Positions 17,592 through 53,799 of a DNA stretch of 64,000 nt are shown here, one piece after another. The position numbers and the translations under genes were made by a program. The stretch covers positions 186,001 through 250,000 of the forward strand of contig JAUIES010000003.1 in the NCBI GenBank assembly GCA_030429705.1, in the 5' to 3' direction. The notes under the pieces are model-generated. The model was not told the origin of the DNA and did not search any database. It saw only the letters and a program-made list of their open reading frames with translations. Every line of letters begins with the position of its first letter. Positions within the stretch are counted from its first letter, which is position 1. This stretch comes from Phycisphaerae bacterium (GTDB taxonomy: Bacteria; Planctomycetota; Phycisphaerae; Phycisphaerales; UBA1924).

Positions 17592-17687
17592 GTCTTTTTG
17601 ACAGCGGCGTGAAAGGTCGTAGACTCGATCGCTTTGACAAGCATGGGACGCGACACCACACGGGTGTTCGCCCTCAAGGTTGGGGTG

Positions 17688-19691: not shown

Positions 19692-19733
19692 AATGAAACC
19701 GAATTGGACCACTACAGCAATAAAGGAGAATCC

Positions 19734-20252
19734 ATGAAGATTTTGAGCCAACTTGCGATGGGTGTGCTCGGTGCAATTGTGGCACTCGGATCCGTCGGTT
19801 GTGAAACGAAACCGACGATGGGCGAGTTCAATGTGACCGTTTCGTTGGCTGACGGATTCAACCCCGTGGGAAGTGTCGAAGTCGATGTCGTGGGCGTGCA
19901 GGACGGACGCGATCTCGTTTCAATCGAGGGCATCTCCGTGAGCGACTACTTCGGGGCGATGAACCCGTATCGGCGTGATCTGGACCGAAAGATCGGGCTG
20001 GTGTTCCGGGCGGACACAGACCGCGAACACCGGATTGATCTCACACGCCGCGGACCGCATTATGCGAACTGGAAGAACGCGAATGTGATGCACCTGGTTG
20101 TTCTGGCCGATCTGTCGAGTTCGGGCGGTCCCGACCTGCGCCGCTTGACGCTTCCACTCGACAAGCATCGCTGGAAGCGCAAGAACCTGGAGATTCTGAT
20201 TGATGCAACAAAGGTATCCTCGGCGTATGCTCCAGAACCGGTGAAGAACTGA
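19734..20252 (+). CDS. Lipoprotein, candidate TssJ equivalent
   Basis: A 172-residue lipoprotein. The signal MKILSQLAMGVLGAIVALGS ends in VGC, and AAAGGAG precedes the ATG. The mature part is a small beta-rich domain: FNVTVSLADGFNPVGSVEVD, VVGVQDGRDLVSIEGISVSD, LDRKIGLVFRADTDREHRID and MHLVVLADLSS. Size, outer-membrane lipoprotein nature and the strand-loop layout fit TssJ, the lipoprotein that contacts TssM in T6SS. Sequence identity to classic TssJ cannot be shown by eye, so the assignment is an inference from context. It is the last gene before a clear terminator at 20291. Confidence 0.5.
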   Translation: MKILSQLAMGVLGAIVALGSVGCETKPTMGEFNVTVSLADGFNPVGSVEVDVVGVQDGRDLVSIEGISVSDYFGAMNPYRRDLDRKIGLVFRADTDREHRIDLTRRGPHYANWKNANVMHLVVLADLSSSGGPDLRRLTLPLDKHRWKRKNLEILIDATKVSSAYAPEPVKN

Positions 20253-20442: not shown

Positions 20443-23400
20443 TTGCGTGTGAACTATGGCGGTTTTGAGGTCGTTGGTTCGTTGCTTCAAGGGCCTCAGG
20501 GTGCCTCGGGGAAGGCACGCCGAATCGGCGAAAAGAACGCCGATTATTTTGTCGAACTGCAGTACCTCGACCCGATTGCAGCACCCGGGCAAGAACGCGT
20601 CGTCGTTGAGCAGTTTCTTGAACGGGCGCAGTTGCAACAGTCCGTCCGCAGTGACTACTGGGAGACGGTTCACGAGATTGGCGAAGTTGAAGACGGAGCG
20701 TTTCGAGTTTCAGATTTGTATCAGCGGAGCGCCCAGGCGCTGATCGATGGCCGCGTTCGACTCGCGAGCGCCGATCTCCAGAACATCGTTTCGAGTTGCC
20801 TGCTCGGGTTGAAGGACTTTCAAGAGCAATCGAGCGGCCGAGCGCACGGCCAATTGCGAGCAGAAGATGTGTTGATCGACGACCATCTTGGTCCGGGCCG
20901 ATGGCGTGTCGTTCTCAGCCGACCCTCGACAGCCACGCAGTCAGGCGAGAGTCTTGAGAAGGCGAGGCGTGCTGATGCTCAGGCGATCGGTGGCATCGTC
21001 CTCGGACTTGTCGAACACCGCCAACCACGCCCATTGCCTTCACGCGTCCAGGTGAACGAAGCCTGGAAACGCGTCGGACAATCGCAGGCCGGTTCATGGG
21101 TGACAGCGGTCAATCGATTGCTCGATCCTGACCTCGATCCATCAAGCGACTGGTTGAACGAGGCGATTGCAGAGTTTCGATCACTCAAGACGAAATCGGG
21201 CAAAAGGAGCCGATGGCCTCTGGTTGCTGCGGTTGTTGGTATTGCAATGATCGGTGGGGGTGTGTTTACAGCCGGGACACTTGGTGGGTGGTGGAACAAA
21301 ACGGAACCTGATACAGAACCATTGACCCTTGCAGCCTGGCAATCGTGGATCCGAAATTGCGATTGGGTGGTCCGCCTCAGGCGCGAGCTCGATCGCGCAT
21401 ATCCAGAGGCGACTCGTGACGAGAACGCTTCAAAGACTCGGTCGTTGCTAAATGAGCTGATTGCGGCGTTGCCCACCAGCGCGGACTATCGAAATCTGCC
21501 AAAGGGCGCGGAGAATGCCTGGACCCCACATCTTCTGATTCCGAATCCGACGAATACTGTCGGCGGACTCTTCGAGTCGAATGAAGATGGCCGAGTCGTT
21601 GACGAGAACGGACGATTCGTGCCGGATGCGGTGCACTTTGAGCACTTTTATGAAATCAAGAACATTCATCGCCGTGTGCAAGTTGTTCAAGAGGTTGTCG
21701 AGTCTATCGAGAAGATTTGTCAGGAATCAGGCAATCGAGGCGATGTTGAATCGTTCGTGAAGACGCTCGGTGCGTGGGGGGCACAGCCCGAACAGTTGAA
21801 GAGTCTTGAAGCCGTTCCACAGCAGTTGGTGATTGACGAAATCACAGGGACTGATTCGATTATCAACTTTGTAGCCGCGGTCGAGTTGAGCGCTCAAGCG
21901 AGAACACTTGAAACGGACCTTTCATTGCTCGTTGAACGCTGTGCAGCATTGAAGTCTCATGCGGACGAGAGCGCGGCAAACGATCCGGTGCTTGGTCGGC
22001 TCGACTCGATCGTGCAAGCAGAGATCGTGCGTTCAGTTGCGGATGGGCAGGATGCCGCGACGACGATCGTTGCGATCAAAGACGCTGCGGGCGGAGCGAA
22101 CGAAGTGCTCGATCGAATCGAGAGATTGATGAACGATCACTACACGCAGATTGTCCAACGACCATTTGTGCAAGCGTTGAACGATCGAGGGTTGTCTTCA
22201 AAAAACGAGTTTTCTGTTCTTGAAGATTGGCTTGAAGTTGCCGGGCAGTTGCGTTTCCGAAGGCTGACAGGGGCGAGGGATCTGTTCCGTAGCTTGCGTT
22301 CCCCAGATGGAATCACAGCGTTTCTTAGTACAGCCAATGAGAGTATTGAACAAGTGCAGGCGCTGCCTCAGGCAGCGACCGATGATCGAGTCCAATCGGC
22401 GATTCAGCGTCTTCAGTCGACGATGGCTGAGATTCGAACCGAGATCGATTCGGCCCTTGAACTGGAGGCGACGGTTGCGAACGAGTCTGAATTGAATGCT
22501 CGATTTAGTTCAATAGATTCTCGATTGCAAAGCGATGTGAAAGACATCGCCGCGACCGTCGTCAGTGAGAACAGCCGAACGCTCGCCCAGGCGATTGACC
22601 TGTTTGTCTCGACAACTTCTCCATTTCGAGATAACTCGCTGTTTGATCAAGAGATCAGGAAACTGCGCGATCGGCTTGAGATCGAAGCCCGTGAAGGGCA
22701 GTCATTGCAAACCGATGCCGAGCAGAGCGCACTGGCATTCAGGCTCGTTCAAGAGCATGATGCAGTCAGAGATCGATTCATTGCCATTCGAGATCACACC
22801 AGCGTTCAGTTCAACATTGAGCGCACAGAGTCAATCGACATTGATCCGTTGCGTGTAGCGTTCGAAGCATTGCGACATTCGCGACGATTGGCGTTGATCG
22901 GGTCGTCTGATGAGATATCAGCAACGCCTGACGATGTGTTGACGGCTGTTGCCAGTGAGATTGAAGCCGCGATCGGACAGGCTCGCGCGTTGGAAAACCG
23001 TCTCAACCAGTGGGTGGATGTGGCGCAGTTGAGCGAAGTTGCGTCCGTTTTGAACCCGACCTTGAGCGACAATACCGAGGTGGCTCAGGCTTATGGCGAA
23101 GCGATCGCTGCGCTACGCGGCCGAGTCACCAACGCGACAGATGTGCAGGGAAACCAAACCGACCTGCTTGCAACGGCGAGCGATCCTCGATCACCAGCGG
23201 AGTTGAGGCGTGCGGCTTTCCAACGAGTTATGTCGAGCGGGTCCGATTGGCCGGCGACACCTGACGATCTGACTGCGTTTATTGACTGTGGCACGAGTTT
23301 GATCGCGAGTTTGCAGCGAGCAACCGACCATGCGTGGGATGTACAGGTGGTGCAAGATGCGATTGGGGAGCGATGGCGCGTCGCGATGTCGAATGCGGCC

Positions 23401-24756
23401 ACAGAGACAGATTTCGTCGCGATTCGCGGGCTTCGCGATAGCGCGGGTCTCGATGGCAGCGCGGAGACCGCGTTGTCGAGCGAGATCCGTCGTAACCTGG
23501 CGGTGGTTGACTTGAAGGCTGCGCTCGCGGCGTTGCCCCGATTGAATGACAGTCAGGCCGATGATGCCGAGGTGCGTCGAACCGTTGACGGATGGTTGCA
23601 ACAGCATGAGCCTGTGATCAACAATGCGGCTTGGCTCGGGGAACTGCGATCCGCGTTCAACGATACGAGTCAGAGCAGTGGGGAGTTTGATCCGGGTGCT
23701 TATGGGCCGGGGACGACGAACACAGGTTGGGTCGGTTCGGTTGATGCTGAACTCAACACCATTTCGTATCGCAAAGGTGGCTGGACGCTCGAGTTTCGCC
23801 GCGTCACGACGGGCGATACTGAGGATGTCTGGTTTCTTGGGACTGAAGAAGTTCCTCTCGGACTTTTGCTCGAGACGGTCCCGCATGATCAACTGCAGGT
23901 CGATCATGCGGAGGGTCGAAAAACGAACGGCCCGCGCGGTTGGGATGTCGACGATGCTGGCAATGTACTTTCGTCGACGAGTTGGTTCGAGTATCAGACG
24001 AGCCCCCTGGATCGCTCGAGTTCGATCGGAGATTTCAATCAGTTCGGTCTGTATAGCCCGGACTTGAGCCAGGCGGGGGCTTCTGCCATTCTCAATCAGT
24101 CAGACGGTGCGTTGAAAGACGATTTCCCGGCTCAGAACTTCATGCTCGAGACCATCGAGTATTTTTGCGCTCAAACAGGGTGTGTCCTGCCTTCAGAAGA
24201 GGTGTGGTTGGCCGCGGTGACGGAGCAGTTTGCGCAGGCGGGGCTCGGGTCGCCGCAAGTGAACGGAGCATCGGTTTCCGCACTCGCATTGCAAGTACGC
24301 GACGCGCAGTGGTTGAATCAATATCAGTACACGGAACAACTTCGAGCCGACGGAAATCTTCAGCCTGGTCACGACTTCTGGTGGAAGTTCTGTGTGTTTC
24401 CGTGGCAGCGCGGTGCGGATGCTTCGTCGGTGTGGACCGGAGTTGATGATCAACATCTGCTGTTCGTTCCAGTTTCGCATGGCAACGCCAATGGATGGAA
24501 GCACCTGATTGGCAATGTCGGCGAGGTTGTGACCGTCGCAGGTGGTCACGCGGCGATCGGCGGTTCCGCCATGTCGCCAGCGAGTGTCCCGGTGACGACT
24601 CCGATCGCGTTAAGGCGGAGCCATCTGCCCGCTGCGGATATCGGTTTCCGGTTGGCGATGAAGGTCCCTGCAAGCGATCTGAACCCGAGTCTGCGCAAGC
24701 GTGTTGAGGGTCTGTTGGCGAATGACAAAACACCCGCTCAGTTTCCGAGCAGGTGA
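20443..24756 (+). CDS. Giant membrane protein: pseudokinase head, coiled periplasmic region, SUMF1-like end
   Basis: About 1,437 residues. Residues 1-250 resemble a protein kinase: ADYFVELQYLDP, an HGQLRAEDVLID loop (135-146) in place of HRDLKPxN, and DAQAIGGIVLGLV (178-190). The catalytic Asp is absent, so it is a likely pseudokinase. One TM helix (about 258-280) is followed by about 900 residues of mostly helical sequence. The C-terminal 230 residues look like an FGE/SUMF1 (C-type lectin-like) domain: LPSEEVWLAAVTEQFAQAGL, LIGNVGEVVTVAGG, IGGSAMSP and AADIGFRLAMKVP. The active-site Cys pair of true FGE enzymes is missing. It is paralogous in layout to the 33,027-37,502 protein. It could fill the place of PpkA. 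The start is TTG at 20443 or GTG at 20449. A short hairpin spans the stop codon (24731-24755). Confidence 0.75.
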   Translation: MRVNYGGFEVVGSLLQGPQGASGKARRIGEKNADYFVELQYLDPIAAPGQERVVVEQFLERAQLQQSVRSDYWETVHEIGEVEDGAFRVSDLYQRSAQALIDGRVRLASADLQNIVSSCLLGLKDFQEQSSGRAHGQLRAEDVLIDDHLGPGRWRVVLSRPSTATQSGESLEKARRADAQAIGGIVLGLVEHRQPRPLPSRVQVNEAWKRVGQSQAGSWVTAVNRLLDPDLDPSSDWLNEAIAEFRSLKTKSGKRSRWPLVAAVVGIAMIGGGVFTAGTLGGWWNKTEPDTEPLTLAAWQSWIRNCDWVVRLRRELDRAYPEATRDENASKTRSLLNELIAALPTSADYRNLPKGAENAWTPHLLIPNPTNTVGGLFESNEDGRVVDENGRFVPDAVHFEHFYEIKNIHRRVQVVQEVVESIEKICQESGNRGDVESFVKTLGAWGAQPEQLKSLEAVPQQLVIDEITGTDSIINFVAAVELSAQARTLETDLSLLVERCAALKSHADESAANDPVLGRLDSIVQAEIVRSVADGQDAATTIVAIKDAAGGANEVLDRIERLMNDHYTQIVQRPFVQALNDRGLSSKNEFSVLEDWLEVAGQLRFRRLTGARDLFRSLRSPDGITAFLSTANESIEQVQALPQAATDDRVQSAIQRLQSTMAEIRTEIDSALELEATVANESELNARFSSIDSRLQSDVKDIAATVVSENSRTLAQAIDLFVSTTSPFRDNSLFDQEIRKLRDRLEIEAREGQSLQTDAEQSALAFRLVQEHDAVRDRFIAIRDHTSVQFNIERTESIDIDPLRVAFEALRHSRRLALIGSSDEISATPDDVLTAVASEIEAAIGQARALENRLNQWVDVAQLSEVASVLNPTLSDNTEVAQAYGEAIAALRGRVTNATDVQGNQTDLLATASDPRSPAELRRAAFQRVMSSGSDWPATPDDLTAFIDCGTSLIASLQRATDHAWDVQVVQDAIGERWRVAMSNAATETDFVAIRGLRDSAGLDGSAETALSSEIRRNLAVVDLKAALAALPRLNDSQADDAEVRRTVDGWLQQHEPVINNAAWLGELRSAFNDTSQSSGEFDPGAYGPGTTNTGWVGSVDAELNTISYRKGGWTLEFRRVTTGDTEDVWFLGTEEVPLGLLLETVPHDQLQVDHAEGRKTNGPRGWDVDDAGNVLSSTSWFEYQTSPLDRSSSIGDFNQFGLYSPDLSQAGASAILNQSDGALKDDFPAQNFMLETIEYFCAQTGCVLPSEEVWLAAVTEQFAQAGLGSPQVNGASVSALALQVRDAQWLNQYQYTEQLRADGNLQPGHDFWWKFCVFPWQRGADASSVWTGVDDQHLLFVPVSHGNANGWKHLIGNVGEVVTVAGGHAAIGGSAMSPASVPVTTPIALRRSHLPAADIGFRLAMKVPASDLNPSLRKRVEGLLANDKTPAQFPSR

Positions 24757-24791
24757 GGGTGAACGGGTTCGATTGTCGATGTGCGTAAAAG

Positions 24792-25124
24792 TTAATCGAC
24801 GGGAACGGTGGCGACGGCATCCAACTGTTCGAGGCGTATGGCTTCGACATAGGCCACGGTGTCATAGAAGGATGCGCCGCCCAATGCGTCGGAGGCTGCG
24901 AGCATCGATCGACCTTGAGGCCAAACGACTTGCGTGTCATCCGCGAATGCCATTCGTCCGATTTCGTCGGCCTGGATGATCTTGCCCAGATTGCGGTCTG
25001 TAGATGGATACCACCAATCGCGTGCTTCAACGCCTGGGAGCAGCACCTGTGTGCGGGTCTGGTGAGCGCATCCCCCCAGAAGAAGTGTTCCGAGTGTTGC
25101 GGTCGCAATGATCGTGGTTCGCAT
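24792..25124 (-). CDS. Small lipoprotein, function unknown
   Basis: A 110-residue protein with the signal MRTTIIATATLGTLLLGGC (lipobox LLGGC) and a strong AGGAG 8 bases before the ATG. The mature part contains LLPGVEARDWWYPSTDRNLG and VVWPQGRSMLAASDALGGAS. I do not recognise it. It is the only minus-strand gene in the 50 kb T6SS region, converging on the pseudokinase gene and divergent from the gene at 25339. Confidence 0.65.
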   Translation of the reverse strand: MRTTIIATATLGTLLLGGCAHQTRTQVLLPGVEARDWWYPSTDRNLGKIIQADEIGRMAFADDTQVVWPQGRSMLAASDALGGASFYDTVAYVEAIRLEQLDAVATVPVD

Positions 25125-25338
25125 AAGACTTCTCCTGTGAGTTGCGTGAGAAATCGACGCTCCAAGGATCTGAGGCCATGAAGAGCGGGGTCGATCGGCG
25201 AGATTGAGCCCCACGAACCGGTGTATTCGTGAGGAGCGGCGCAGCCCGCAGGGTCAACGCGCGCCCGGACGCGCGAATCCGGTATCATGGGACCTGCCGG
25301 TTGGCGGACGATCGGTTGTAAAGGAAAGGCGGGTGTGC

Positions 25339-26268
25339 GTGGGCGACGAGAGTTGGCTTTCGCTGGCGGAGCGGACAGCAAACAGAATCAGGCTTCTCCA
25401 AGCGGACTTGGCGGATGAAGATCCGGATGTTCGGCGTGCGCATGTGACTGAAGAGGTCCGGGAAGCGCTGGCGAAGCTGGTGCCGCACGATCAGGAGCGA
25501 TTTCTCGAGGCTCTCGAAGCCCGGTTTCCTGCATGGGAGGCTGAGGGGATGGTGGCACAAGCTCCGGCTTCAAATGCGCCGCCCCGTTCAGTTGCGCCCA
25601 CAGACATGGCCGAGTTTCAGGACCCTGGTTTCCTCATTCGGCAGTTGCAGAAACTCGCACCAGCGATGACAGGCGAGCAGCGCGTGCGCGCGGCGGAAGA
25701 GTTGGCGAGGTCAGGGATTACGACTGGTGGCGCGGGCGGGGTCTCGCCCGAAGCCATGGATCGTGTGCGTGCCACGCTGGAACTTTCGCCCGAGATGTCG
25801 GTGGATATGGAGCGGCTGGTTCATGTGATGGCGACCGTTCTGGAGAAGGTCGTGAGTCTGGATGACATCGCGTGGAAGAACTGGATGAAGATGTCGGAGA
25901 ATCGGCGATCGCGCGGTCGGTCAGGTCTTGCTGGTGTTCTTGGCAAGTATGTCTCTGGCAATGACGAAGTCGGCAGCTCGCAGGTCACGGATGAGTTGGA
26001 GTCGTTCCGCCGGTTGACGGCGTCGTTGATGCTTGCTCTGAGTCAGAGTGGACAGGCAGCGTATACGCAGATGCGTCGTTTGCATCCTGACGAAATCGAA
26101 GGCATCATTCGCAATGAGAAGGCAAACCTGCTTGTCAGTCAGGATGTACGCTGTTGGCGGCGGTATCGTGAACTTGCGGGCGCGATGGACGCTGCGCAGG
26201 TCGAAGTTGAACTTCTGCGTAGTCTCGCAGGATGGGTGAACGAATGGATGTCGCGTCAGTCTCGTTGA
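25339..26268 (+). CDS. T6SS-associated protein resembling the C-terminal part of Fha/TagH
   Basis: A helical cytoplasmic protein of about 309 residues. The C-terminal half (MERLVHVMATVLEKVVSLDD, FRRLTASLMLALSQSGQAAY, QMRRLHPDEIEGIIRNEKAN) follows the general layout of the region after the FHA domain in T6SS Fha proteins. No FHA domain precedes it. The similarity is weak and by eye. The start GTG at 25339 is chosen because AAGGAAAGG lies 9 bases upstream; codons further upstream encode Arg-rich, unlikely sequence. It heads the tssK-tssL-tssM run, 41 bases before tssK. Confidence 0.55.
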   Translation: MGDESWLSLAERTANRIRLLQADLADEDPDVRRAHVTEEVREALAKLVPHDQERFLEALEARFPAWEAEGMVAQAPASNAPPRSVAPTDMAEFQDPGFLIRQLQKLAPAMTGEQRVRAAEELARSGITTGGAGGVSPEAMDRVRATLELSPEMSVDMERLVHVMATVLEKVVSLDDIAWKNWMKMSENRRSRGRSGLAGVLGKYVSGNDEVGSSQVTDELESFRRLTASLMLALSQSGQAAYTQMRRLHPDEIEGIIRNEKANLLVSQDVRCWRRYRELAGAMDAAQVEVELLRSLAGWVNEWMSRQSR

Positions 26269-26309
26269 GTTGTTGACGCTTCAGTCTTTTTTTGGAGGCA
26301 TTGCCACGA

Positions 26310-27677
26310 ATGACTGTTCAGGTGCACTGGCATGAAGGGTTGTTTCTTCAGCCGCATCATCTTCAGGCGATGCAGCGTCAGTTGATGACGCGCATGACGA
26401 CGGAGCGCCGTTTGTCGTGGGCGTATCCGTATGGTGTGATTGAAGCCAAACTGTCAACTGATGAACTCGAGAACATGCGACTGCGGTTTGACCGGTTGCA
26501 TGTGATCATGCCCAGCGGGCTGGAGATCATCGTCCCTGACAATGCCGACTTGCCTGCGCTCGACATCGAAGAGATGTTCAACGCGAGTACGGCGCCGTTC
26601 ACGGTCAGTTTGGCGGTGCCTTTGTGGTACGCCAAGCGAGCGAACGCGTTTGAAATCGGCGGGGAAGCCGACTGGCGTGTCAAACGGCTGTTCCGCGTCA
26701 CTGAAGTTGACCACGCTGACGAGAACACAGGCGAGAACGCACAGACCATCATCATGCGGCGTATCAACGCGCGGCTGTTGTTTCCTGAAGACGATCGCAG
26801 CGACATGGAGACGGTGCCGTTGCTGCGGATCATGCACGCAGCGGGTGAAGAGTCTGGTGTGCCTCGGCTGGATGCGACATTTGTACCGCCTTGCATGCTG
26901 TTGAGCGGTTCATCGGTATTGCGAGAGACCTTGCGCGATATCGCAAATCAGGTCGAAGCAGCACGAAAAGAAGCGGTCCAATTGCTCACGCGCGGCGGGT
27001 TCAATGCAGAAGCGATTCGTGGTGCTTTGGTGCCTCAGATGATGAGGCTGCAGACACTGAATCAGTACGCGGGTCGGCTGAGCGCTCTGGTGCATGCTCC
27101 AGGGGGCGTGTCGCCATTCGACATGTATCTTGAGTTGCGCGGGCTGCTTGGTGAGTTGGCAAGTCTGGTGCCGGATGTAGATCCGTTCGAGGCTCCCAAG
27201 TATGACCATGACAATCCTGCGGTTGCGTTCCTGACGATTTGCGATCGCATACGGACGCTGCTGCGAGGCGAGGGCGCGACGACCTGGATTCGAGTTCCAT
27301 TCTCGATGGAGAAAGGGATCTATGTCGCGGCGCTTGAAGACAAGCATATCGATGGGCCGAACGAGTATTTCCTAGGTATCAAGACGCGGCGCGATCCGCG
27401 CGAACTTGCGAAGTTGGTCGAAGATCAGGATGAGTTCAAGTTGATCGCGACAAGTATGGCTCGTACGCGTGTGCGCGGCGTGAAGTTGCAGGAAGAGCGA
27501 CATCCCCCGATGCAGTTGCCTGCACAGGTGGGGCTGCACTACTACCGGCTGGGCCGAAGCGAAAGCCAACGGATGTGGGAAAAGATCAAGGGTGAACGGT
27601 CAATCGCGGTGAATTTCCAGGGCGTTGATTCTTCCGGTTTCGATGAAGTGGTTCTGTACATGACCGTGCCTGGATGA
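26310..27677 (+). CDS. tssK: T6SS baseplate protein TssK
   Basis: 455 residues. It opens MTVQVHWHEGLFLQPHHLQA, the hallmark of TssK (VasE/ImpJ). It continues with LSWAYPYGVIEAKLSTDELE, the MPSGLEIIVPD strand and VAALEDKHIDGPNEYFLGIK, and ends in a C-terminal beta domain. TssK is a trimer that links the baseplate (TssFGE) to the TssL-TssM membrane complex. GGAGG lies 11 bases before the ATG at 26310; TTG codons just upstream are less likely because the family starts here. It is followed by tssL after 13 bases. Confidence 0.95.
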   Translation: MTVQVHWHEGLFLQPHHLQAMQRQLMTRMTTERRLSWAYPYGVIEAKLSTDELENMRLRFDRLHVIMPSGLEIIVPDNADLPALDIEEMFNASTAPFTVSLAVPLWYAKRANAFEIGGEADWRVKRLFRVTEVDHADENTGENAQTIIMRRINARLLFPEDDRSDMETVPLLRIMHAAGEESGVPRLDATFVPPCMLLSGSSVLRETLRDIANQVEAARKEAVQLLTRGGFNAEAIRGALVPQMMRLQTLNQYAGRLSALVHAPGGVSPFDMYLELRGLLGELASLVPDVDPFEAPKYDHDNPAVAFLTICDRIRTLLRGEGATTWIRVPFSMEKGIYVAALEDKHIDGPNEYFLGIKTRRDPRELAKLVEDQDEFKLIATSMARTRVRGVKLQEERHPPMQLPAQVGLHYYRLGRSESQRMWEKIKGERSIAVNFQGVDSSGFDEVVLYMTVPG

Positions 27678-27690
27678 GTGAGGAATGACG

Positions 27691-28413
27691 ATGCGCAACA
27701 TGATGCGGCTGCACGAACTTTGTGATCCGCTTTTTCAATATGTTTGTCGGTTGAATCGATCCGCTCGCAAGGGTGTGGGGCTTGAACCGAATCTGGTTCG
27801 AACGGATATTCAGGCGACATTCAGTGAAATGCGATCGAAAGCGTCGAGCGAAGCCGGGCTCGTGGACCAGTTCGCGAAGGTCGAGCTTGCTTTGATTTAC
27901 TTCGTCGATTTTATGATCAAAGAAAGCAGTCTTGCATTTGCTGGTGAGTGGAAGGAACTCGCTCATGATCAGGGCAAGATGGCGGGCGACGAAGAGTTTT
28001 TTGATCTGTTGGACGACACGCTGCGCGACCCGAGCGAAGCGGCTTCAGAGCGATTGACGGTCTATTACACCTGCCTTGGACTTGGGTTCACGGGGTTTTA
28101 TACCGGTCAGCCGGAGTATCTGCGCAAGAAGATGATGGAGATCCAGGCGCGTGTGCGCGGGGTGATGGATCAGGATGTGGCAGCACGCATCTGTCCGGAA
28201 GCGTACGACCATGTTGATACGCGCCCGTTGAACCTTCCGCCACTGCGCAACTTGAAGGGCATGGTGATCGTGCTCATTGCGGTGGTGGTCGGGGTCTTGT
28301 TGGCGAACTGGTGGATGTACAAGGAAGCCGCCCGTGAGCTGGACGGTTCTTTGAAGACCATTCTCGATGTCCGCGACAAGTATGTTGAAGATGCCAAGGT
28401 CGAGTCTGAATGA
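27691..28413 (+). CDS. tssL: T6SS membrane protein TssL (DotU family)
   Basis: 240 residues. The cytoplasmic hook domain shows MRLHELCDPLFQYVCRLNRS, VELALIYFVDFMIKE, FFDLLDDTLRDPSEAASERL and YYTCLGLGFTGFYTGQPEYL, which is the DotU signature region. One C-terminal TM helix (MVIVLIAVVVGVLLANWWMY, about 193-212) and a short periplasmic tail end it. There is no OmpA/peptidoglycan-binding extension, so cell-wall anchoring must come from another protein. The start at 27691 is preferred to 27685 because GAGG is 7 bases upstream. Confidence 0.95.
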   Translation: MRNMMRLHELCDPLFQYVCRLNRSARKGVGLEPNLVRTDIQATFSEMRSKASSEAGLVDQFAKVELALIYFVDFMIKESSLAFAGEWKELAHDQGKMAGDEEFFDLLDDTLRDPSEAASERLTVYYTCLGLGFTGFYTGQPEYLRKKMMEIQARVRGVMDQDVAARICPEAYDHVDTRPLNLPPLRNLKGMVIVLIAVVVGVLLANWWMYKEAARELDGSLKTILDVRDKYVEDAKVESE

Positions 28414-28444
28414 TGATCAGCCATAGCGCTGATGGAGCGATGTG

Positions 28445-31400
28445 ATGGGCAGTTTATCGATGTTTCTGAATCTTCCGATGCCGGTCAAGGCGGCGATCTT
28501 CGTCGTCACTGGTGGCGGAATTATGGGTCTGATGTACATCTTGATGATGTCGGGCATCATTCAGGGTTCTCTCGGATACCTGTTGCTCATTGCCATGGCG
28601 ATCGCGGCAGCGGTGTTTGGTATCTACAAGTTTTTCTCCAAACGGATGGAGAAGCGCAAGGCCAAGCCGTTTGAGCAGAAAATGGCGGACAGCGCTTCGG
28701 CGACCCCGACCGGTGTGAGCGATCCGAACAGCCGGGCAAAACTTGATGATCTGCGCAAGCGATTTGAAGAGGGGATTCAAGTCTTTAAAGAGCACGGCAA
28801 GGATCTGTATACCATGCCTTGGTATGTCATTGTCGGTGAGCCCGGCTCAGGCAAGACGGAAGCCATGCGACACAGCAATGTCGGCTTCCCCCCCGGGCTT
28901 CAGGATCAGTTGCAGGGCGTTGGCGGGACGGTCAACATGCACTGGTGGTTCACCAACCAGTCCGTCATGATCGACACCGCCGGACGCTTGATGTTTGACG
29001 ACATCGAGCCGGGCAATGTGAATGAGTGGGGCGAGTTTCTCAAGATGCTGCGAACGGCAAGGCCGAATTGCCCACTCAACGGCATGCTGCTCGTCATTCC
29101 GGCTGACAGTCTGATCAAAGACTCGGCGAACGACCTTGAACGCAAGGGCGGCAAAATCGCCCAGCAACTCGACAATATTCAGCGAGCACTTGGTGTCCGA
29201 TTCCCAGTGTATATCGTGATCAGCAAAGCGGACCGTATCAACGGCTTCCGCGAGTTCTTCGAGGAGTTAACCGACCCGGTCATGCAGATGCAGATGATGG
29301 GTTGGACGAATCCGAACGATCTGGATACGCCGTTTGATCCTTCGATGGTCGAGCAGCATCTCAAGAGTGTGCGTGAGCGATTGGTTCGACGGCGATTCTC
29401 ACTTCTGGCTGACCCGGTTAACTCGGATGATCCGATGGGCCAACGGATCGATCAGGTTGATGCGCTCTATGCATTCCCGGACAGTTTGGTGAAGTTGTCG
29501 CCGCGCCTTCGCCGGTATCTCGAGATGGTGTTCGTGGCGGGTGAATGGTCGCAGAAGCCATTGTTCCTGCGCGGGATTTACTTCACGAGTTCGATGCGTG
29601 AAGGCGATGCGCTTGATGCGGATCTGGCGGATGTGCTCGGCGTGCAGGTCGATGCGCTGCGCGAGGGGAAACTCTGGGAGCGCGATCGCAGTTACTTCCT
29701 CAAGGATGTCTTCATGGAGAAGGTTTTCCGCGAGAAGGGGCTGGTGACGCGTGAGTCAAATGTTGGCAAGAGTCGTCGGCGTCAGTCGGTGATCTTGCTG
29801 ACCGCGGGCACCTTGTTGGCGGTTGGCGCAGGTCTGTGGACCTATTTCGCATCGGCGAGGCTTGAGCAGAGCATCGATGGGACCAGTCGAGACATGGCTG
29901 CGATTGCGGAGATGATCAGTCCGGATCTTGTCAACGATAATGACCGTCAGACCAGGCCATCGGTTGCTCTGGTTCAACCGTTCTCGGGGTTTTATCTTGG
30001 TGTACCCACCGCGGGCGAATCGGGCGGGCTCACAAGGATCAAGTTACAGCGTGATGCGAAATTTCGCGCAGACAGCGGCATCAAGAAGGACCCGATCTTC
30101 TGGTTTGCCTCGGCAGCAACCGGAGACCTCAGTGAACGGCTGAAGGAAGCTCAGTCATTCTTGTTCGATCAGTATGCGCTTCGTGCATTTGTCAATGAAG
30201 CTCGCGCTCGGATTGGCAAACCTCATCGACTCAACTCCGATGCACAACGCATGTCGGATGCCGAGCTTCTCGGTGTTGATCGAGGTGCCGAGTGGTGGTC
30301 TGACCACGCTGTGGATGCGCTGACCTCACTGCTTGAGATTGAAAGCGTCGGTACTGATGAAAAATTGGTGCTGAGTGAGGTAGATTATCGTCGGTGGCTC
30401 GAAAGTTTCTCGAATTACCCTTCTCAGTTGCCGGGAGAGTATCGTCGCTTTTTGCAGAGCGAGGATGAAGATAAAACGCTTGGTTGGGAAAATCTCACGG
30501 AAGAGGACAAGACCTTCCTGGTGGGGGTTCTGTTTGAAAGATTTGGTGCCGAAGGCGATGGCTTGGCCGAAGCCCTCGGCGGTGGAACCGAACAGTCGCA
30601 AGAAGTCATTCGACGAGGTGTCGAGTCATTTCAATTGTCGTGGACTGGTGGAGACGGCGGGCAGGCGACGCTCCTGAGTCTTTTGAATTCGTTTTCGGAA
30701 GCGGCGCGAGCGTATCAGACTGCCGAGTCGGCCGTCATTCGCTTTACAGGTTTTGAAAACGCGCAAACCAGCACTGCGTTTGAGTCTGCTCGGGATGAAT
30801 GGTCTGGACTGGTCACGGCTTTGCATGATGAGCGTGTTGAGCTCGAGGCGGTTTTGAATACAACCGTTGCGAAACGATCTTCAGCGGGAGCCGCTCAAGA
30901 AAGCACACTCCTTGAGAATCTCATGCAGTGGACCAGTACGAATCTGAAAACTGAAGCGAAGCAGCGGGCGACCCAGGTTGCAAACGACCGTTTTGGTCAA
31001 CTGGCTCAGGCGATCCCTGAGACGCTCACAGTTGAAGATGAGGGCTCGGCGAAGTTCCTGGCAGAAATGCGTCAGTCGCTAGAGACCGCGCGTCTCGCGT
31101 ACCTCGCCTCGGTTGATGAGGAGATCGACAATGCAATGAGCGCGTTGATTGGCGACGGGAACGGTTCGTCAGGGCTCATCGCTACGCTGATCAAGTCGGG
31201 CGATTCGAATAATGTGTTGTATGTCGAACGACTGACCGCTATCGATGCGGTCCGTGATTACATCACCAAGCCGGTGACGAGTGCGCCGGATGTCGCGGCG
31301 TTTGCATCCGCCATCGACACGCTGTCAAGTCACATCAAAGAAGAGCAAAACAAGCTTCCCGCGTCCGGCGAAGATTCGCGTGCGGGATTGACCGGGTCAG

Positions 31401-32998
31401 TCACACGCAATGGGCTGTCAGCGTATCAAGCCTATATCGCCACGCACTGGGTGAAATCGAAGTTGAACGAGTTGCCAGACACGGACTTCGCTCAGGTTGT
31501 CAAGGAAAGGGCCGAAGATCCGAACACGCCTCGTCGAGGGGCTGACTTTAATTTGTCAGTTTTCCCTTGGCTTGGCGATCGGAATAGTCGACTTGAGCCC
31601 TCGTTCGATGATGTCGTGGCAGCCGATGTCCTCACCATCGTCGGCAATCTGGGGCGCATCATCGAAAGCGACACACGACTTCTTGATGTTGATGAGTTGA
31701 GTTCGAATTGGCAAACCGTTTCTGCGTTGGTCGATGTTTACAGAGCCGCATATATCGGCTATTGGATGACGGAAGTACCTAAAAAGTACAAACCGACGCC
31801 GACTGACGGATCATCACAAGCTTGGGCCAACGCGATCAAGACGATCTCTATGAATCAGGACCAGGTGTTTGAAGGCATCTATTCGATTACCAACCGATCT
31901 ATCGAAGCGCTGCAAGCCGTTGAGATGTCGCCCACAGCGGGCAGTGCGGTTCAAAAGTATCTCGCGACGCTCGAATTGGATGCACTTGGTTTCAAAGTCG
32001 GGAGTCTTGAGAAAGGCGTTGGTCGCGTCGCTGCCTCGGAGATGATCTACCGATGGACCAGGCTGACTGACAACTTCCAGGCAGCGTGGCGAGATTTACG
32101 CGAGGACCTGGATGCACCCGGTGAGAATATTCGAAGCACCTACTTTGCTGCTTGTGTCGAGGCACCAACAACACCGGCTCGCGTCTATTGGGCGGGTGTT
32201 GCCGAGATCATGCTCAAAGCCGTTCAAATCAGTGTTGATGCGGACGGTACGGCGAAGCGTGACGCAGTCTGGGCGCTGGGCAAGAAGTTCCCGATCTCGA
32301 GGGATGGGTCAAATGTCGGCGAGATGACAGCTGACGAATTTGAGTCGTTTCAAGATCTTGTTGCATGGTTTGACAGCGCGGTGACCGCAGAACGGGCTGC
32401 GGTGGGCAGCCCTGTGACAGGGTTGCCGCCGAGTGTCGCCAGAATGCTCGACGCGGTTCGCAGGGGGCAAACGCTGCAAGATCGAGACAAGGAAGTGCTC
32501 AGCGGAGCCAAAGATGTGGTTCGTTGGATTCAAGGGCTCAATGAGGGGGGGAGTCAGGGATTGACGATCCACCTCGTTCAACTTGATGATGAAGTTCAGT
32601 TTCGCGAGAATCATCAGTATGTGCGCATTCTGCGCGGCAACCAACCTGTCGAAGTTGGCGATGGCGAAAAGCCGGGGCAGCGACAGGGCACCTACCGAAC
32701 CGTACGAAGTGAAACGACTGAAGCGCTGTTGACACTGCCCGTGCCATCTGAAGGCGCTCCTATCGATTTCCTGTTCTGGGCGAACTCGCAAGAGTTTCGG
32801 CCGGATGGTCAACCAAAGGCAAGAGGCTCGTTGTCGATGCCGTGGCATGGCTTGCGTGCGATTTCGGATGGGCGACTGGTTGATGGGAATTGGGTTGTTC
32901 CGCTGCGCATGGAATCTGGTGCGGGGCCGTTCAGTGTTCGCGTCGGTGGGCTGACCGCACCGCCTGACTCGTGGCCGACGCTTGCGGATTGGGACTGA
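28445..32998 (+). CDS. tssM: T6SS inner-membrane protein TssM (IcmF family)
   Basis: 1,517 residues. Two N-terminal TM helices are followed by a cytoplasmic NTPase domain with Walker A GEPGSGKT (about residue 130) and DTAGRLM as the Walker B region. It continues LVIPADSLIKDSANDLERKG and YIVISKADRI (NKxD-like). A third TM (ILLTAGTLLAVGAGLWTYFA, about 437-457) precedes a large periplasmic domain of about 1,050 residues. TssM spans the envelope and binds TssJ and TssL. Length is slightly above the usual 1,100-1,300, mostly in the periplasmic part. GGAG lies 7 bases before the ATG at 28445. It is followed by the tagF-like gene after 28 bases. Confidence 0.95.
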   Translation: MGSLSMFLNLPMPVKAAIFVVTGGGIMGLMYILMMSGIIQGSLGYLLLIAMAIAAAVFGIYKFFSKRMEKRKAKPFEQKMADSASATPTGVSDPNSRAKLDDLRKRFEEGIQVFKEHGKDLYTMPWYVIVGEPGSGKTEAMRHSNVGFPPGLQDQLQGVGGTVNMHWWFTNQSVMIDTAGRLMFDDIEPGNVNEWGEFLKMLRTARPNCPLNGMLLVIPADSLIKDSANDLERKGGKIAQQLDNIQRALGVRFPVYIVISKADRINGFREFFEELTDPVMQMQMMGWTNPNDLDTPFDPSMVEQHLKSVRERLVRRRFSLLADPVNSDDPMGQRIDQVDALYAFPDSLVKLSPRLRRYLEMVFVAGEWSQKPLFLRGIYFTSSMREGDALDADLADVLGVQVDALREGKLWERDRSYFLKDVFMEKVFREKGLVTRESNVGKSRRRQSVILLTAGTLLAVGAGLWTYFASARLEQSIDGTSRDMAAIAEMISPDLVNDNDRQTRPSVALVQPFSGFYLGVPTAGESGGLTRIKLQRDAKFRADSGIKKDPIFWFASAATGDLSERLKEAQSFLFDQYALRAFVNEARARIGKPHRLNSDAQRMSDAELLGVDRGAEWWSDHAVDALTSLLEIESVGTDEKLVLSEVDYRRWLESFSNYPSQLPGEYRRFLQSEDEDKTLGWENLTEEDKTFLVGVLFERFGAEGDGLAEALGGGTEQSQEVIRRGVESFQLSWTGGDGGQATLLSLLNSFSEAARAYQTAESAVIRFTGFENAQTSTAFESARDEWSGLVTALHDERVELEAVLNTTVAKRSSAGAAQESTLLENLMQWTSTNLKTEAKQRATQVANDRFGQLAQAIPETLTVEDEGSAKFLAEMRQSLETARLAYLASVDEEIDNAMSALIGDGNGSSGLIATLIKSGDSNNVLYVERLTAIDAVRDYITKPVTSAPDVAAFASAIDTLSSHIKEEQNKLPASGEDSRAGLTGSVTRNGLSAYQAYIATHWVKSKLNELPDTDFAQVVKERAEDPNTPRRGADFNLSVFPWLGDRNSRLEPSFDDVVAADVLTIVGNLGRIIESDTRLLDVDELSSNWQTVSALVDVYRAAYIGYWMTEVPKKYKPTPTDGSSQAWANAIKTISMNQDQVFEGIYSITNRSIEALQAVEMSPTAGSAVQKYLATLELDALGFKVGSLEKGVGRVAASEMIYRWTRLTDNFQAAWRDLREDLDAPGENIRSTYFAACVEAPTTPARVYWAGVAEIMLKAVQISVDADGTAKRDAVWALGKKFPISRDGSNVGEMTADEFESFQDLVAWFDSAVTAERAAVGSPVTGLPPSVARMLDAVRRGQTLQDRDKEVLSGAKDVVRWIQGLNEGGSQGLTIHLVQLDDEVQFRENHQYVRILRGNQPVEVGDGEKPGQRQGTYRTVRSETTEALLTLPVPSEGAPIDFLFWANSQEFRPDGQPKARGSLSMPWHGLRAISDGRLVDGNWVVPLRMESGAGPFSVRVGGLTAPPDSWPTLADWD

Positions 32999-33026
32999 AC
33001 ACAGGCATCGACCGGGGACTGAACAG

Positions 33027-36000
33027 ATGAGTGATGAACAGGGCCGCATCTGGGTAGGAGCATTCGGGAAACACCCCGGATGGGATGACCACATTGCGGA
33101 CCAGGGTCTTGAGACCGAGTTGCTCACACGGGTCAAGCGTTTGCTGTATCTCGAGGGCATCGGCGGCAATATCGATTCTGGTGCCTGGGCTGAGCTCGAT
33201 CCGGATGAGCATCTTGATGGATTTGACCATGTTTTTCTGTGGCGTTGGGCGGGGGGGCTGGTCGCTGGTCGGCTCTGGAGTTCGAGCGACGGGAAAGGGC
33301 GAACGCGATATCCGATGATCGTGTGTGCTCATTGTCGAGGTCTTGCAGGTGAATGGGTCGCTGGACCCTGTCTGGATGCTCTTGACGACCTGGCGACCAA
33401 TTGTCGGGCCGCAACTGACGCCGCGGGTGTGATGACGGCTGTTGACGATGCTCGGCGAAACCTGCGTTCGGCGGCCGCGACCGCTCCACTGGCATCGACC
33501 GAGCCACTTTCCACGCCCGCTGCACTTGCTCAGATTGCTGATTGTGAACAAATGAATGCTGAAGCGCTCAGTCGGGTTGTGTATCAACTCGAGCGTGAGT
33601 TCAGTTCGTTCCTTCTGACCGATTTGGACAGCGGCACACGCTCGCGGACGATTGATGTGCGACCTCGCCATATGCGTGTTCCGGCGTGCAGAGATCGTTC
33701 TGGGGAAGCGTGTGATCTTTGGCTCCGTTTTCTGCTCGAACGAACAGACCCTGTGGCTCCGCTCGTCGCGATTGTGCGACGGGGTGAGGGCACTTGTGAT
33801 TTGATTGCGGGTGAGCCGACGCGTGGGCAGTTTGCCTGTTTGCAGTCTTCTCTCAAACGGGTGCCTTTGACAACCGAGATCCCGTACACCATCGATGAAG
33901 CATTTGCTGATCGCGTCTCGAAGCGAGTCGAGGCGGCTCGCACGGGTGATCTTCGCGATATTGATCCTGGGCACCTCGTCGAAGCGCCGACGCGAACGCT
34001 TCGTACACCCGTTGCTCCGGATCGATCGCAGATCAAGTTGATCGGCATGGTCGCTGCCGCAGTGATTGTCGTGTTCCTCCTGATCTTCGCAGTGATCAAG
34101 ATCGCGGGCAATAGTGGAGGTGGTGGCAGTGGAACACCAGACCGCGATCGCGCAACAAGCCGTTCTGATTCAGCCGTTGATGATGATGTATCGCCAGCGG
34201 TCTTGACTTCAGATGAGATCACGAAACGGGTGGAAGCGTTTCAGGATTGGAGTCGATCGTTTGGCAGTTGGTTCGGCCCGCTCGCGACTGTGAAGGGTTC
34301 AGACAGGGAGATTCTCGCTTCGGATGCCTACCTCAATGAGCATGTCCTCGCGCCGATCGAGCGTGCACGAGAAGCGGGGATTGTGTTCGACCCTCTTGGC
34401 GTGGTGAACAATCCGCCGCCGACTGTGTTTTCATTGGTATCCGATCCACCAGCAGAGGTCTCAACAACAGCGGTTTGGGATCGCACGCAACGAGCACAAT
34501 CAGTCATTGGCGAAGTCCGTGCTGGGCTCCTTGCCTGGCCGATTCGCGAGCGGGTGATGGCGCTAGCCGATCGGCTCGATGCGGCGGGTGTTGTTGCACC
34601 GGTCGCGGATCTCCGTGCGGCCGCCGAGGCAGCAAGTCCAAATGGCGGGGGGGCAATCATGCCGGCGATCGAAGCGCTGGTGCTCGCCGAAAACAATGCA
34701 GCGGTGCTTGATGCGGCCGATCGAATCGAATCGATCGTCGATGCAATCGAAGTCATGCGGACCTCTGATGATGCGGTTTTGCGGGAGGAAGCCGAGACGC
34801 TACACGCACTGCTTGAGGGTGTTCGCTCATCCGCAGATGTCACGCAGTTTGCCGAACGAGCGATTACGCTAAACGATGCCACGCAACTTGCGACTTCGAT
34901 CAGCAGTTTTGCGCGGACCGCGTTCGCCGATGTCGACACGACCGTGTTCGAGTCTCAGAGTGCTGCCCACACCGGTTCTGAGCGAGGAATCAAACGACTG
35001 CGACAGTGGCTCGCCGACGCGAAACGGCCGGAGATGCAAAAACTCGATCCCGCACTTGATCCAAGGCTGCACGCCGAAATCGAGACTCGTCTGGCCGAAC
35101 TCGATCACGCGTTGGGTCTGTTCGATGAACAGGGTCGGACAGCATATGCAGCGGAGATCGAATCGCTTGAGGCGAGACGAGCTGCTCTCGGCGAATCAGC
35201 TGCGACGATTCATGACCTCGCGTGGAACTCGAGCAACAGGGGCGGGATCGAGAGCGGCATGACCACGCTCGCCCGAGACATTGCTCGACTGGACCGAGAC
35301 ACGAACGATCTCCGAGCGGTGATCAGTGTCGACATTGCTGAGAAACTGGCAGACCTGCGTTCGCGCGACTTGGTTTCGACATCGGGCCTTGATGCGATCG
35401 ATGAGTTGTGGCGCATCGGCCGAAAAGCACTGCTCGAGCGGTACAGTCGCGATGACAATCATCTCGCCCTGTTTCGCGATGCACGAACGCTGCGGGAACG
35501 ATTGCAGCACCTCGAAGATACGACGCTGACGCTGCAGCGTGAGTTCGATCTGCCCGTGACCTGGGACCGCGGTGCCGTTCAAGCGCGCCAGGACAATGCT
35601 CGCAATAAAGCCGTGTCCACGCATGCTCGCGCGGTTTCGGCAGGTGCGATTGATGACGAGGGTTTCGAAGAGATCGTGTCATTGGTACGGTCATATACAG
35701 AGGACTCGCTCATCGATTTGGCAGCGTTGATTGACTCAATTGCGACTGTGCAATCACTGGTGGATGGTTTGCACGCATTCGATGAGGAGCCGCACAAGGG
35801 CGAATCGATGAGGGCGTTGCTCGCTTCGATGGGCGAAGAGCATGAGGCTGCTCGGCTGATTGCACCGGTGTTGTATCAAAGTATCGATGCCCTTCAGGCG
35901 GTCATGGATGCATCGCAAGAGCGCGATGAACTGGTATCCATCCTCAACGATTCACGAACAACTGACGCGTCCGCATTTGCTTCATGGCGAGCACTTAGCG

Positions 36001-37502
36001 GTGTGACACCCGTTTGGCCGGGGAGTCTGTCGGAGTTAGAGAGCGACCTGATTCTGGCCAGTCGCATTCGTACGGCGAGTTCTGGTGTGTCAGATGCTGT
36101 GCGCCGCTCGGCGATTGAGGCGGCGGTCGCGGAAACGCTGCGGCAACGGTGGGTGACAGCAGCGAATGCCAGTGCAGATCGCGCCGAACTGTTGGCAATC
36201 AAGCGCCTGCGCGAGAACTGCGGTGGTCATCTGGCCGCTCTGGCAGATACAACACGGTTCAATTTGGGTGTGGATTCGATCGAGCAAGCGATCGATTCTG
36301 GTGAAGACGACGATGTGAATCGTGCACGGTTGCGGTCGGCACTCGCATCATTTGAATCGCTCGAGTTGAATGAGCAAGCGGACGCGTGGTTGACAGAGGT
36401 TGCTCAACTGGCAGATGAGGAAGCCGATCAGGTGCCGCCGCTTGATCCGTCTTCGGTTGGCCCGGCGCGTGCAGGTTGGCGTGTTGTCGAAGGCAGTACT
36501 GAAGAGCGACTCGTCTACGAGCGTACGACGGGTGACCAGCATCGGTTGGCGTTTCGATTGGTAACCCTTGCCGATGGTCGAGCGTCGTATGTGTGCGAGA
36601 CTGAGTTGTCGGTCGGCGTTGTCGCGGGGCTTGTCGATGATGATCTGCGCTTTGCGCAGGAGTTGATCACCACGCTCGATGGAATCGGACTGCAAAGTGA
36701 TGAGCGTCGTGGTATGTCCACCTGGGTGTGGATGGGTTCGGAAGACGCACCAGCGTTGAGCGCTGCTGAGTCGTGGGTGTCGGTGACCTGGATCGCACCC
36801 GACGAATATGCGGTTGACGGCGGCAACGCAGACTACCCGAGTTTGTCGCACCCTCTGCAGCGCATTGCGTTGTCTGATGCCATGTTCATTGCGGCACGAT
36901 TGGGCTGTCGACTTCCAACGGTCGATGAATGGCGTGCTGCGCATGCATCCGTCCCATCTGCCCAGGGCTGGAATGTGCGCGACCAGCGTTTTGCGCGTCA
37001 AGTTGAACATGTGCGGTCAATCGGTGCCGATTGGAGCGACTCGAAACTGGCAGCACTGATGCCGGATTTCAATGGGCAGTCTCCACTCGCTGGCGATCCG
37101 GTTTATCCGAATGACGACGGCCAGGTCTGGCTATCTGAGGTTGACGCCGGCCCAGATGCTGCGTTTCGACACATCGTCGGCAATGTGCATGAGTATGTGA
37201 TCATCGATTTCGCTGGACAGGTTGAGGCCATGGGGTCATCGGCGCGTGCACCGTCAGATGAAGACATCAAGCGATGGTTTCCGATTGCGCGCAAACTGAA
37301 GGCCGGTGTCATCGGCGGATCGTTGTTTAGTCGATCTGATGCTCCGGCGACGGAGGTCACGCCGGTGGATGATCTCATCGGTGGAGCGACGGATGTAGGT
37401 GTTCGACTTGCGTTTAGTTCGGAATCAGGACGGGTCCAGCGGAGCGTTGCATCGCGGATTCGAGCGTTGATTGATCGAGCACCGTTTTTGACGGCTGAAT
37501 AG
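33027..37502 (+). CDS. Giant membrane protein: TagF-like head, coiled region, SUMF1-like end
   Basis: 1,491 residues. Residues 8-105 match the TagF (ImpM) pattern: WVGAFGKHPGWDDHIADQGL, FDHVFLWRWAGGLV and a GRTRYPMIV stretch. TagF acts as a post-translational brake of T6SS. A TM helix (about 337-360) precedes a Gly/Ser-rich linker, then about 800 mostly helical residues. The C-terminal region begins LDPSSVGPARAGWRVVEGST and ends with HIVGNVHEYVIIDFAGQVEA, VIGGSLFSRSD and ATDVGVRLAFSSE, a SUMF1/FGE-like fold without the catalytic Cys pair. The C-terminal half is laid out like the 20,443-24,756 protein, pointing to a shared ancestor. GGGGA precedes the ATG at 33027. Fusion of TagF to a periplasmic sensor-like region is unusual. 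Confidence 0.8.
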   Translation: MSDEQGRIWVGAFGKHPGWDDHIADQGLETELLTRVKRLLYLEGIGGNIDSGAWAELDPDEHLDGFDHVFLWRWAGGLVAGRLWSSSDGKGRTRYPMIVCAHCRGLAGEWVAGPCLDALDDLATNCRAATDAAGVMTAVDDARRNLRSAAATAPLASTEPLSTPAALAQIADCEQMNAEALSRVVYQLEREFSSFLLTDLDSGTRSRTIDVRPRHMRVPACRDRSGEACDLWLRFLLERTDPVAPLVAIVRRGEGTCDLIAGEPTRGQFACLQSSLKRVPLTTEIPYTIDEAFADRVSKRVEAARTGDLRDIDPGHLVEAPTRTLRTPVAPDRSQIKLIGMVAAAVIVVFLLIFAVIKIAGNSGGGGSGTPDRDRATSRSDSAVDDDVSPAVLTSDEITKRVEAFQDWSRSFGSWFGPLATVKGSDREILASDAYLNEHVLAPIERAREAGIVFDPLGVVNNPPPTVFSLVSDPPAEVSTTAVWDRTQRAQSVIGEVRAGLLAWPIRERVMALADRLDAAGVVAPVADLRAAAEAASPNGGGAIMPAIEALVLAENNAAVLDAADRIESIVDAIEVMRTSDDAVLREEAETLHALLEGVRSSADVTQFAERAITLNDATQLATSISSFARTAFADVDTTVFESQSAAHTGSERGIKRLRQWLADAKRPEMQKLDPALDPRLHAEIETRLAELDHALGLFDEQGRTAYAAEIESLEARRAALGESAATIHDLAWNSSNRGGIESGMTTLARDIARLDRDTNDLRAVISVDIAEKLADLRSRDLVSTSGLDAIDELWRIGRKALLERYSRDDNHLALFRDARTLRERLQHLEDTTLTLQREFDLPVTWDRGAVQARQDNARNKAVSTHARAVSAGAIDDEGFEEIVSLVRSYTEDSLIDLAALIDSIATVQSLVDGLHAFDEEPHKGESMRALLASMGEEHEAARLIAPVLYQSIDALQAVMDASQERDELVSILNDSRTTDASAFASWRALSGVTPVWPGSLSELESDLILASRIRTASSGVSDAVRRSAIEAAVAETLRQRWVTAANASADRAELLAIKRLRENCGGHLAALADTTRFNLGVDSIEQAIDSGEDDDVNRARLRSALASFESLELNEQADAWLTEVAQLADEEADQVPPLDPSSVGPARAGWRVVEGSTEERLVYERTTGDQHRLAFRLVTLADGRASYVCETELSVGVVAGLVDDDLRFAQELITTLDGIGLQSDERRGMSTWVWMGSEDAPALSAAESWVSVTWIAPDEYAVDGGNADYPSLSHPLQRIALSDAMFIAARLGCRLPTVDEWRAAHASVPSAQGWNVRDQRFARQVEHVRSIGADWSDSKLAALMPDFNGQSPLAGDPVYPNDDGQVWLSEVDAGPDAAFRHIVGNVHEYVIIDFAGQVEAMGSSARAPSDEDIKRWFPIARKLKAGVIGGSLFSRSDAPATEVTPVDDLIGGATDVGVRLAFSSESGRVQRSVASRIRALIDRAPFLTAE

Positions 37503-39684: not shown

Positions 39685-39813
39685 TTTTGCGATTGCGCGT
39701 GTATCTTAGTCTGTGACAGGATGTTGTCGTCACAGGCAGGTCCGATAGAAGAACCACCGGGTCGAACTCGAACGCGTGTTCGAGGCGGCCCATATGTAGA
39801 TCAGGAGCAGGCG

Positions 39814-49818: not shown

Positions 49819-49853
49819 ACGCCTCGATGCTGATCTATGGAGTACGATCGCAC

Positions 49854-50909: not shown

Positions 50910-50914
50910 CCTCG

Positions 50915-50943
50915 TTGGCGAAGATTCCGCGTTCTGGTATGAT
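50915..50943 (+). promoter_or_regulatory. Promoter for tssBC with extended -10
   Basis: TTGGCG (50915-50920), a 17-base spacer and TATGAT (50938-50943), with TGG before the -10 giving the extended TGnTATGAT form. Transcription would start near 50950 and give a leader of about 110 bases before tssB. It lies just after tssA ends, so sheath genes can be made at higher levels than upstream genes. Confidence 0.6.
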
Positions 50944-51059
50944 GTGGCAAGCCTCAGGGCGGCCCGGTTATGGTCTGGGCGTGACTCGCCCGCTCGACAC
51001 AGGGCACGAGGGCGAAGTGCCGGGAAAGTGGGTTTTCGGCAGGGACGAAGGAGTAATCG

Positions 51060-53080: not shown

Positions 53081-53100
53081 GTTTCTTCTTGCTTCCAAGT

Positions 53101-53769: not shown

Positions 53770-53799
53770 TTCCGACCGATCTGAAGATTCGATACACTA

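Follow-up and report, generated by a model that had tools for sequence, protein, structure and literature searches.

Two membrane receptors with related bodies and different cytoplasmic heads, one a predicted pseudokinase and the other a TagF domain, lie in the type VI secretion system (T6SS) cluster of a Phycisphaerae bacterium, within the 64,000-nt stretch analysed here (the window, which lies on contig C5 of a genome of 3.5 Mb). Elsewhere these two regulators occur as separate proteins. We propose, at a probability of roughly 0.55, that such paired single-pass receptors are a membrane-spanning, phosphorylation-independent version of the PpkA-Fha-TagF switch of T6SSs, acting on TssL/TssM. 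Coordinates are collected in Table 1. A sequence-only reading of the window had described two open reading frames (ORFs) with a shared layout of regulator, one transmembrane (TM) helix, helical stretch and FGE-like end, and ORFs, hydropathy, profiles and models all bear this layout out.

Each protein (P0001, kinase-type; P0002, TagF-type) has one strong TM segment by hydropathy. BLASTP aligns ~450 C-terminal residues of the two at E = 4e-13, a profile built from either tail finds both tails (E < 1e-98), and a stalk profile of the TagF protein also finds the kinase-type proteins, so the stalks are homologous. On these comparisons the two are paralogous from the TM helix through the C-terminus, which goes beyond the common C-terminal family first claimed, and differ in their heads alone. 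A 'GP...GW' element conserved family-wide reads 'FDPGAYGPG..GW' and 'LDPSSVGP..GW' in the window's copies. A profile of 32 tails matches human SUMF1/FGE at 2.4e-11, and 30 of the 32 singly match Pfam FGE-sulfatase; the window's kinase-type tail, scanned alone, is among the two that give no match. The AlphaFold model of P0001 residues 250-1437 is an all-helical stalk followed by an FGE-like fold, and its 22 best PDB matches are only FGE and FGE-like proteins (E only 2e-3). P0002 alone gave only noise against the PDB, and P0001 as a single-sequence query against the genome contigs gave no matches because the receptor proteins diverge too fast. The catalytic cysteine pair is absent at the corresponding position in the aligned FGE-like tails, and for this reason the ends are probably binding domains, not enzymes.

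The head of P0001 has a protein kinase fold, as a profile of 16 such heads matches StkP at 6.5e-11. Three catalytic residues are replaced in the window's copy (beta-3 Lys by Glu, HRD by HGQ and the DFG Asp by Arg); family-wide, the HRD motif is almost always HGx, with the catalytic Asp missing in 36 of 38 distinct homologs. Judged by its sequence, the head appears catalytically dead.

The identity of the P0002 head as TagF is weak by sequence and is decided by its predicted fold. Pfam TagF_N is matched by 10 of 22 heads (best E 0.005), and the window's head scores 12.2 bits, under the curated cut-off of 27; the score measures recognition, is no feature of the biology, and marks a divergent branch. 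The AlphaFold model of the head (predicted local distance difference test, pLDDT, 90) fits the TagF crystal structures from Acinetobacter and Pseudomonas; its seven best PDB matches are all TagF (9t0n at E 2.3e-8), and nothing else matches well. With this fold match and the StkP match, the pseudokinase and TagF heads named from sequence hold. Across the TagF heads the GK and S-D-R patches vary little or not at all and are spaced as in Agrobacterium; the D of DF is kept, the F having become H. In Agrobacterium both patches are critical for binding Fha, in Pseudomonas for repression, and repression by the TagF domain is independent of phosphorylation (PMC5995506). In the surveyed loci the tagF gene adjoins tssM.

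Between the kinase receptor and TssK sits orf354, which is conserved across these loci. T6SS_FHA_C (PF20232) is matched by 6 of 18 orf354 homologs (best 4e-4); the domain scan found no FHA domain in orf354, and no FHA or PP2C domain in any cluster protein scanned. Because the kinase head is apparently dead, orf354 has no FHA domain and a PP2C gene is missing, the threonine-phosphorylation parts may have been kept as scaffolds, and the PpkA/Fha/TagF phosphorylation pathway looks rebuilt without kinase chemistry or an FHA reader. Neither this intervening gene nor the parallel with the periplasmic activator TagR figured in the sequence-only reading.

The proposed switch would work as follows. The FGE-like ends would lie in the periplasm and there engage a ligand or a partner in the envelope, rather as PpkA is acted on in its periplasmic part by TagR, and gain or loss of this contact would alter the state of both cytoplasmic heads. 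The TagF head would hold the Fha-like protein or TssM, blocking maturation of the TssL/TssM membrane complex, and the pseudokinase head would compete for or release the same Fha-like protein as a scaffold, with no phosphorylation. On the simplest reading, envelope binding at the FGE ends would decide where the Fha-like protein sits: on the TagF head the system would be off, and on the pseudokinase head or TssL/TssM it would be on. The output would be assembly of the TssL/TssM complex, together with sheath and spike where present, and perhaps also with the two-partner system next to it. Control would be phosphorylation-independent, the kinase catalytic residues being lost and the Fha-like gene having no FHA domain. 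In Serratia, TagF keeps the membrane complex from forming until phosphorylated Fha lifts the block, and the periplasmic part of PpkA is the target of TagR and RtkS (PMC6082577, PMC10482370).

Several points weigh against this proposal. Its weakest link is the Fha step, since the assignment of orf354 is weak (0.02 for the window's protein, 4e-4 for the best homolog). Conservation of the TagF DW patch is not evident. The kinase heads of G021 and of the outgroup G360 still have the HRD Asp, and activity can survive in a pseudokinase. The periplasmic location of the FGE-like ends is deduced from the TM prediction, and no TM helix is predicted for one TagF receptor (L162), while that of another (L154) is borderline.

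Like PpkA-Fha-PppA-TagF control with TagQRST in Pseudomonas, Serratia and Agrobacterium, the arrangement has a kinase-fold membrane protein with a periplasmic part, an Fha-related protein, a TagF adjoining tssM and a periplasmic activator. It differs in its apparently dead kinase head, in having neither an FHA domain nor a PP2C gene in the cluster, in the fusion of an activator-like FGE end to both kinase and TagF, and in the membrane anchoring of TagF. An FGE fold without the catalytic cysteine pair is shared with TagR, which we take to be an FGE-fold protein, with PorK/GldK and with kinase-FGE proteins; here it is attached as a pair to T6SS regulators. TagF is likewise the N-terminal domain of a fusion protein in the Agrobacterium TagF-PppA, but the partner there is a cytoplasmic PP2C phosphatase, whereas here TagF is followed by a TM helix, then several hundred residues of stalk, then the FGE-like end (PMC5995506). 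A literature search confined to open-access papers did not find the same arrangement.

The comparison genomes are mostly metagenome assemblies, in which the absence of a gene from a single case is uncertain. They comprised 60 relatives compared for gene order and, from a scan of genome contigs with the TagF head, the best 80 of 144 loci, mostly from Phycisphaerales with some from Verrucomicrobiota; under phylum-wide sampling the TagF head was present in 6 of 392 genomes. Relatives having the locus keep the order kinase receptor, orf354, TssK, TssL, TssM, TagF, TpsB, TpsA and tail genes, which is fixed across Planctomycetota and Verrucomicrobiota, with TssK optional and TagF with or without its receptor. 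Among 107 TagF rows, 46 are receptor-fused, 46 stand alone at the same place in the locus, 8 have other long C-termini and 7 are cut by contig ends. The kinase receptor is the more general part; the earlier suggestion that both regulators may be wired to twin receptors stands for the kinase and applies to TagF in only about half of the loci. On the TagF-head tree, a quick tree with some long branches, the fused state changes at least 16 times, at least five of them on well supported branches, and such repeated fusion and fission is a sign that the components work together.

The repeated fusion also weighs against accidental domain shuffling, under which the fusions would have no special meaning and which we consider highly improbable. 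Domains of the FGE fold turn up often in these genomes, as many weak matches, and kinases with FGE ends are known in the planctomycete phylum; against this, one specific stalk-and-end family recurs at the same gene position, purifying selection extends over head, stalk and end (ratio of non-synonymous to synonymous substitution rates, dN/dS, 0.12-0.27 for the whole fused protein and 0.09-0.41 for stalk and end), and Verrucomicrobiota have a compact TagF-TM-FGE protein whose FGE domain is divergent (L143:9935-12130). The verrucomicrobial variants show other solutions with the same logic; the others are TagF-TM-TPR proteins (L183:9494-12202 and L201:9206-11659) and the same kinase-like head joined to a TonB C-terminal domain, with no FGE end (L205:399-3143). 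At L223:7459-11310 a headless receptor (short N-terminus, TM helix, stalk, FGE end) lies beside the kinase receptor, and TagF is free there.

Two expectations drawn from the window, that the receptors are linked to tss genes and that both receptor types co-occur in relatives, are borne out by the survey. The receptors do not occur independently of each other: wherever TagF is fused, the genome has a second FGE receptor, adjacent or elsewhere, the sole exception found being the relic G012. This constant company, the isolated divergent pair of receptor genes in G020, away from its tss locus, and the genomes in which the tails of the two receptors group together in the tail tree would suit an obligate heterodimer linked by its stalks and FGE ends, its heads facing each other as opposing outputs. 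A heterodimer had been suggested from the sequence; we think it quite unlikely. Stalk plus end measures 479-1248 residues in the TagF type and 1018-1366 in the kinase type, uncorrelated within pairs (n=19, Pearson 0.03), and about half of the loci combine a kinase receptor with a free TagF. Matching of stalk lengths was thus sought as evidence for a rigid heterodimer and not found; the unequal lengths argue against a rigid parallel one. The tail tree intermixes receptor types, monophyly of TagF-type tails having p 0.051 in the approximately unbiased (AU) test, and from the tails we claim neither one duplication nor several.

A complete TpsB/TpsA two-partner secretion pair (37606-49764) lies inside the T6SS cluster, between tagF and tssA, and is conserved there in most Phycisphaerales loci examined. 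At least 15 genomes retain TssL, TssM, TagF, the Fha-like gene, TpsB/TpsA and a kinase receptor, with neither VipB nor TssF detected in the genome. These sheath-less and baseplate-less modules are L149, L151, L152, L173, L178, L180, L190, L198, L199, L200 and L203, with G006, G024, G029 and G035; 'at least' allows for L196, on a short contig, and L161, which has an actinobacterial name, is very similar to L152 and is perhaps mis-binned. VipB, TssK and TssF were not found genome-wide in G006, G019, G024, G029 and G035 (a single-contig genome), in which TssM, TagF and TpsB/TpsA are present; VipB and TssF were not found in 11 further survey genomes, Opitutaceae among them. TssK is absent from the tail-less genomes genome-wide where searched, and from the locus elsewhere. 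The module order is kinase receptor (elsewhere in some genomes), Fha-like, TssL, TssM, TagF, TpsB, TpsA. TssM of these loci retains GEPGSGKT or a close variant, save for a G019 fragment in which the region is missing, and is under purifying selection in the sole pair tested (L152/L161, dN/dS 0.14). Simple decay of a T6SS is disfavoured by the whole genes, the kept P-loops, the purifying selection and the occurrence in two phyla. The module need not come with a contractile T6SS, since in many genomes it persists without sheath or baseplate beside TpsB/TpsA.

These loci lend themselves to another, tentative and less probable reading, that the receptors mainly serve two-partner secretion: TssL/TssM, the TagF, pseudokinase and Fha-like controls and the twin FGE receptors would form the heart of an envelope machine in its own right, one that senses, gates or drives TpsB/TpsA, and tails would be an optional attachment. 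Besides the retained modules and the constrained TssM, the position of TpsB speaks for it. TpsB follows TagF in 12 of 12 tail-less survey loci with enough flank; it adjoins fused TagF in 29 of 30 loci versus 20 of 35 for unfused (Fisher p 3e-4), and the kinase receptor is associated with it 37:7 versus 3:7 (Fisher p 0.0015), both values being too optimistic because the loci are related. Three loci (L133, L137, L195) nevertheless have a receptor without an adjacent TpsB, and no mechanism is known by which TssL/TssM would be joined to TpsB. The retention of control proteins in the absence of a T6SS tail has a parallel in the Deltaproteobacteria, where TagQRST-PpkA occurs with SrfABC, mostly without T6SS machinery; the partner there is SrfABC, and here it is TssL, TssM, TagF and two-partner secretion (PMC3608642). 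The phosphorylation-independent switch acting on TssL/TssM remains the reading we favour.

The window holds one long T6SS cluster with its genes all on the same strand and a complete core set (TssA-C, E-H, K-M, Hcp, VgrG). No TssJ was identified among the window proteins scanned; the small lipoprotein-like gene of Table 1, itself without a Pfam match, lies directly 5' of the kinase receptor in many loci having tail genes. A CHAP-domain protein between clpV and vgrG (60956-61786) is a candidate peptidoglycan-cutting effector or spike helper. Upstream of the cluster (14341-17591) are LpoB-like, 561-aa and DUF1425/YcfL-like genes, an order kept in G032. Elsewhere in the genome that the window comes from lies a second VipB-like sheath gene, a distant one (G000:C4:460610-461464), and several relatives also have one.

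Table 1. Features of the T6SS cluster and its two receptors (window positions)
Feature	Position	Strand	Evidence
685-aa conserved gene, function unknown, part of conserved gene order	17634..19691	+	
Small lipoprotein-like gene, TssJ candidate by position and size only	19704..20252	+	
P0001, kinase-type receptor, 1437 aa, TTG start: pseudokinase head (predicted), TM, helical stalk, FGE-like end	20443..24756	+	ORF, profiles, model
Kinase-like head, residues 1-236	20443..21150	+	profile, alignment
TM helix of kinase-type receptor, residues 257-281	21211..21285	+	hydropathy
All-helical stalk of kinase-type receptor, presumed periplasmic	21286..23349	+	profile, model
FGE/SUMF1-like end without catalytic cysteines, residues 970-1437	23350..24753	+	BLASTP, profile, Pfam, model
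orf354, Fha C-domain-like, without FHA domain	25204..26268	+	PF20232 T6SS_FHA_C matches in family
TssK	26292..27677	+	domain match 8.9e-66
TssL (DotU)	27685..28413	+	domain match 2.2e-22
TssM (IcmF), P-loop GEPGSGKT	28442..32998	+	domain match, motif
P0002, TagF-type receptor, 1491 aa, ATG start: TagF head, TM, helical stalk, FGE-like end	33027..37502	+	ORF, profiles, model of head
TagF head, residues 1-304; GK (14,15) and S-D-R (86,88,92) patches	33027..33938	+	model, alignment
TM helix of TagF-type receptor, residues 333-366	34023..34124	+	hydropathy
Stalk of TagF-type receptor, homologous to kinase-type stalks	34125..36125	+	stalk profile
FGE-like end of TagF-type receptor, residues 1034-1491	36126..37499	+	BLASTP, profile, Pfam
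TpsB (ShlB/FhaC) outer-membrane transporter	37606..39684	+	domain match 2.7e-11
TpsA exoprotein, 3347 aa, TPS domain	39721..49764	+	domain match 4.4e-20
Tail and baseplate genes TssA, TssB, TssC, Hcp, TagJ/ImpE, TssE, TssF, TssG, ClpV	49827..60901	+	
VgrG	61689..63920	+	

Single molecules here join what the genetics of Pseudomonas and Serratia set in series, namely a periplasmic sensor, a kinase and an opposing repressor. This suggests that T6SS control can run without phosphorylation, and it makes the action of TagF on the membrane complex testable. Through the tail-less loci, functions of TssL/TssM could be told apart from the tail, and the same loci point to a link between two secretion systems that has gone unrecognised.

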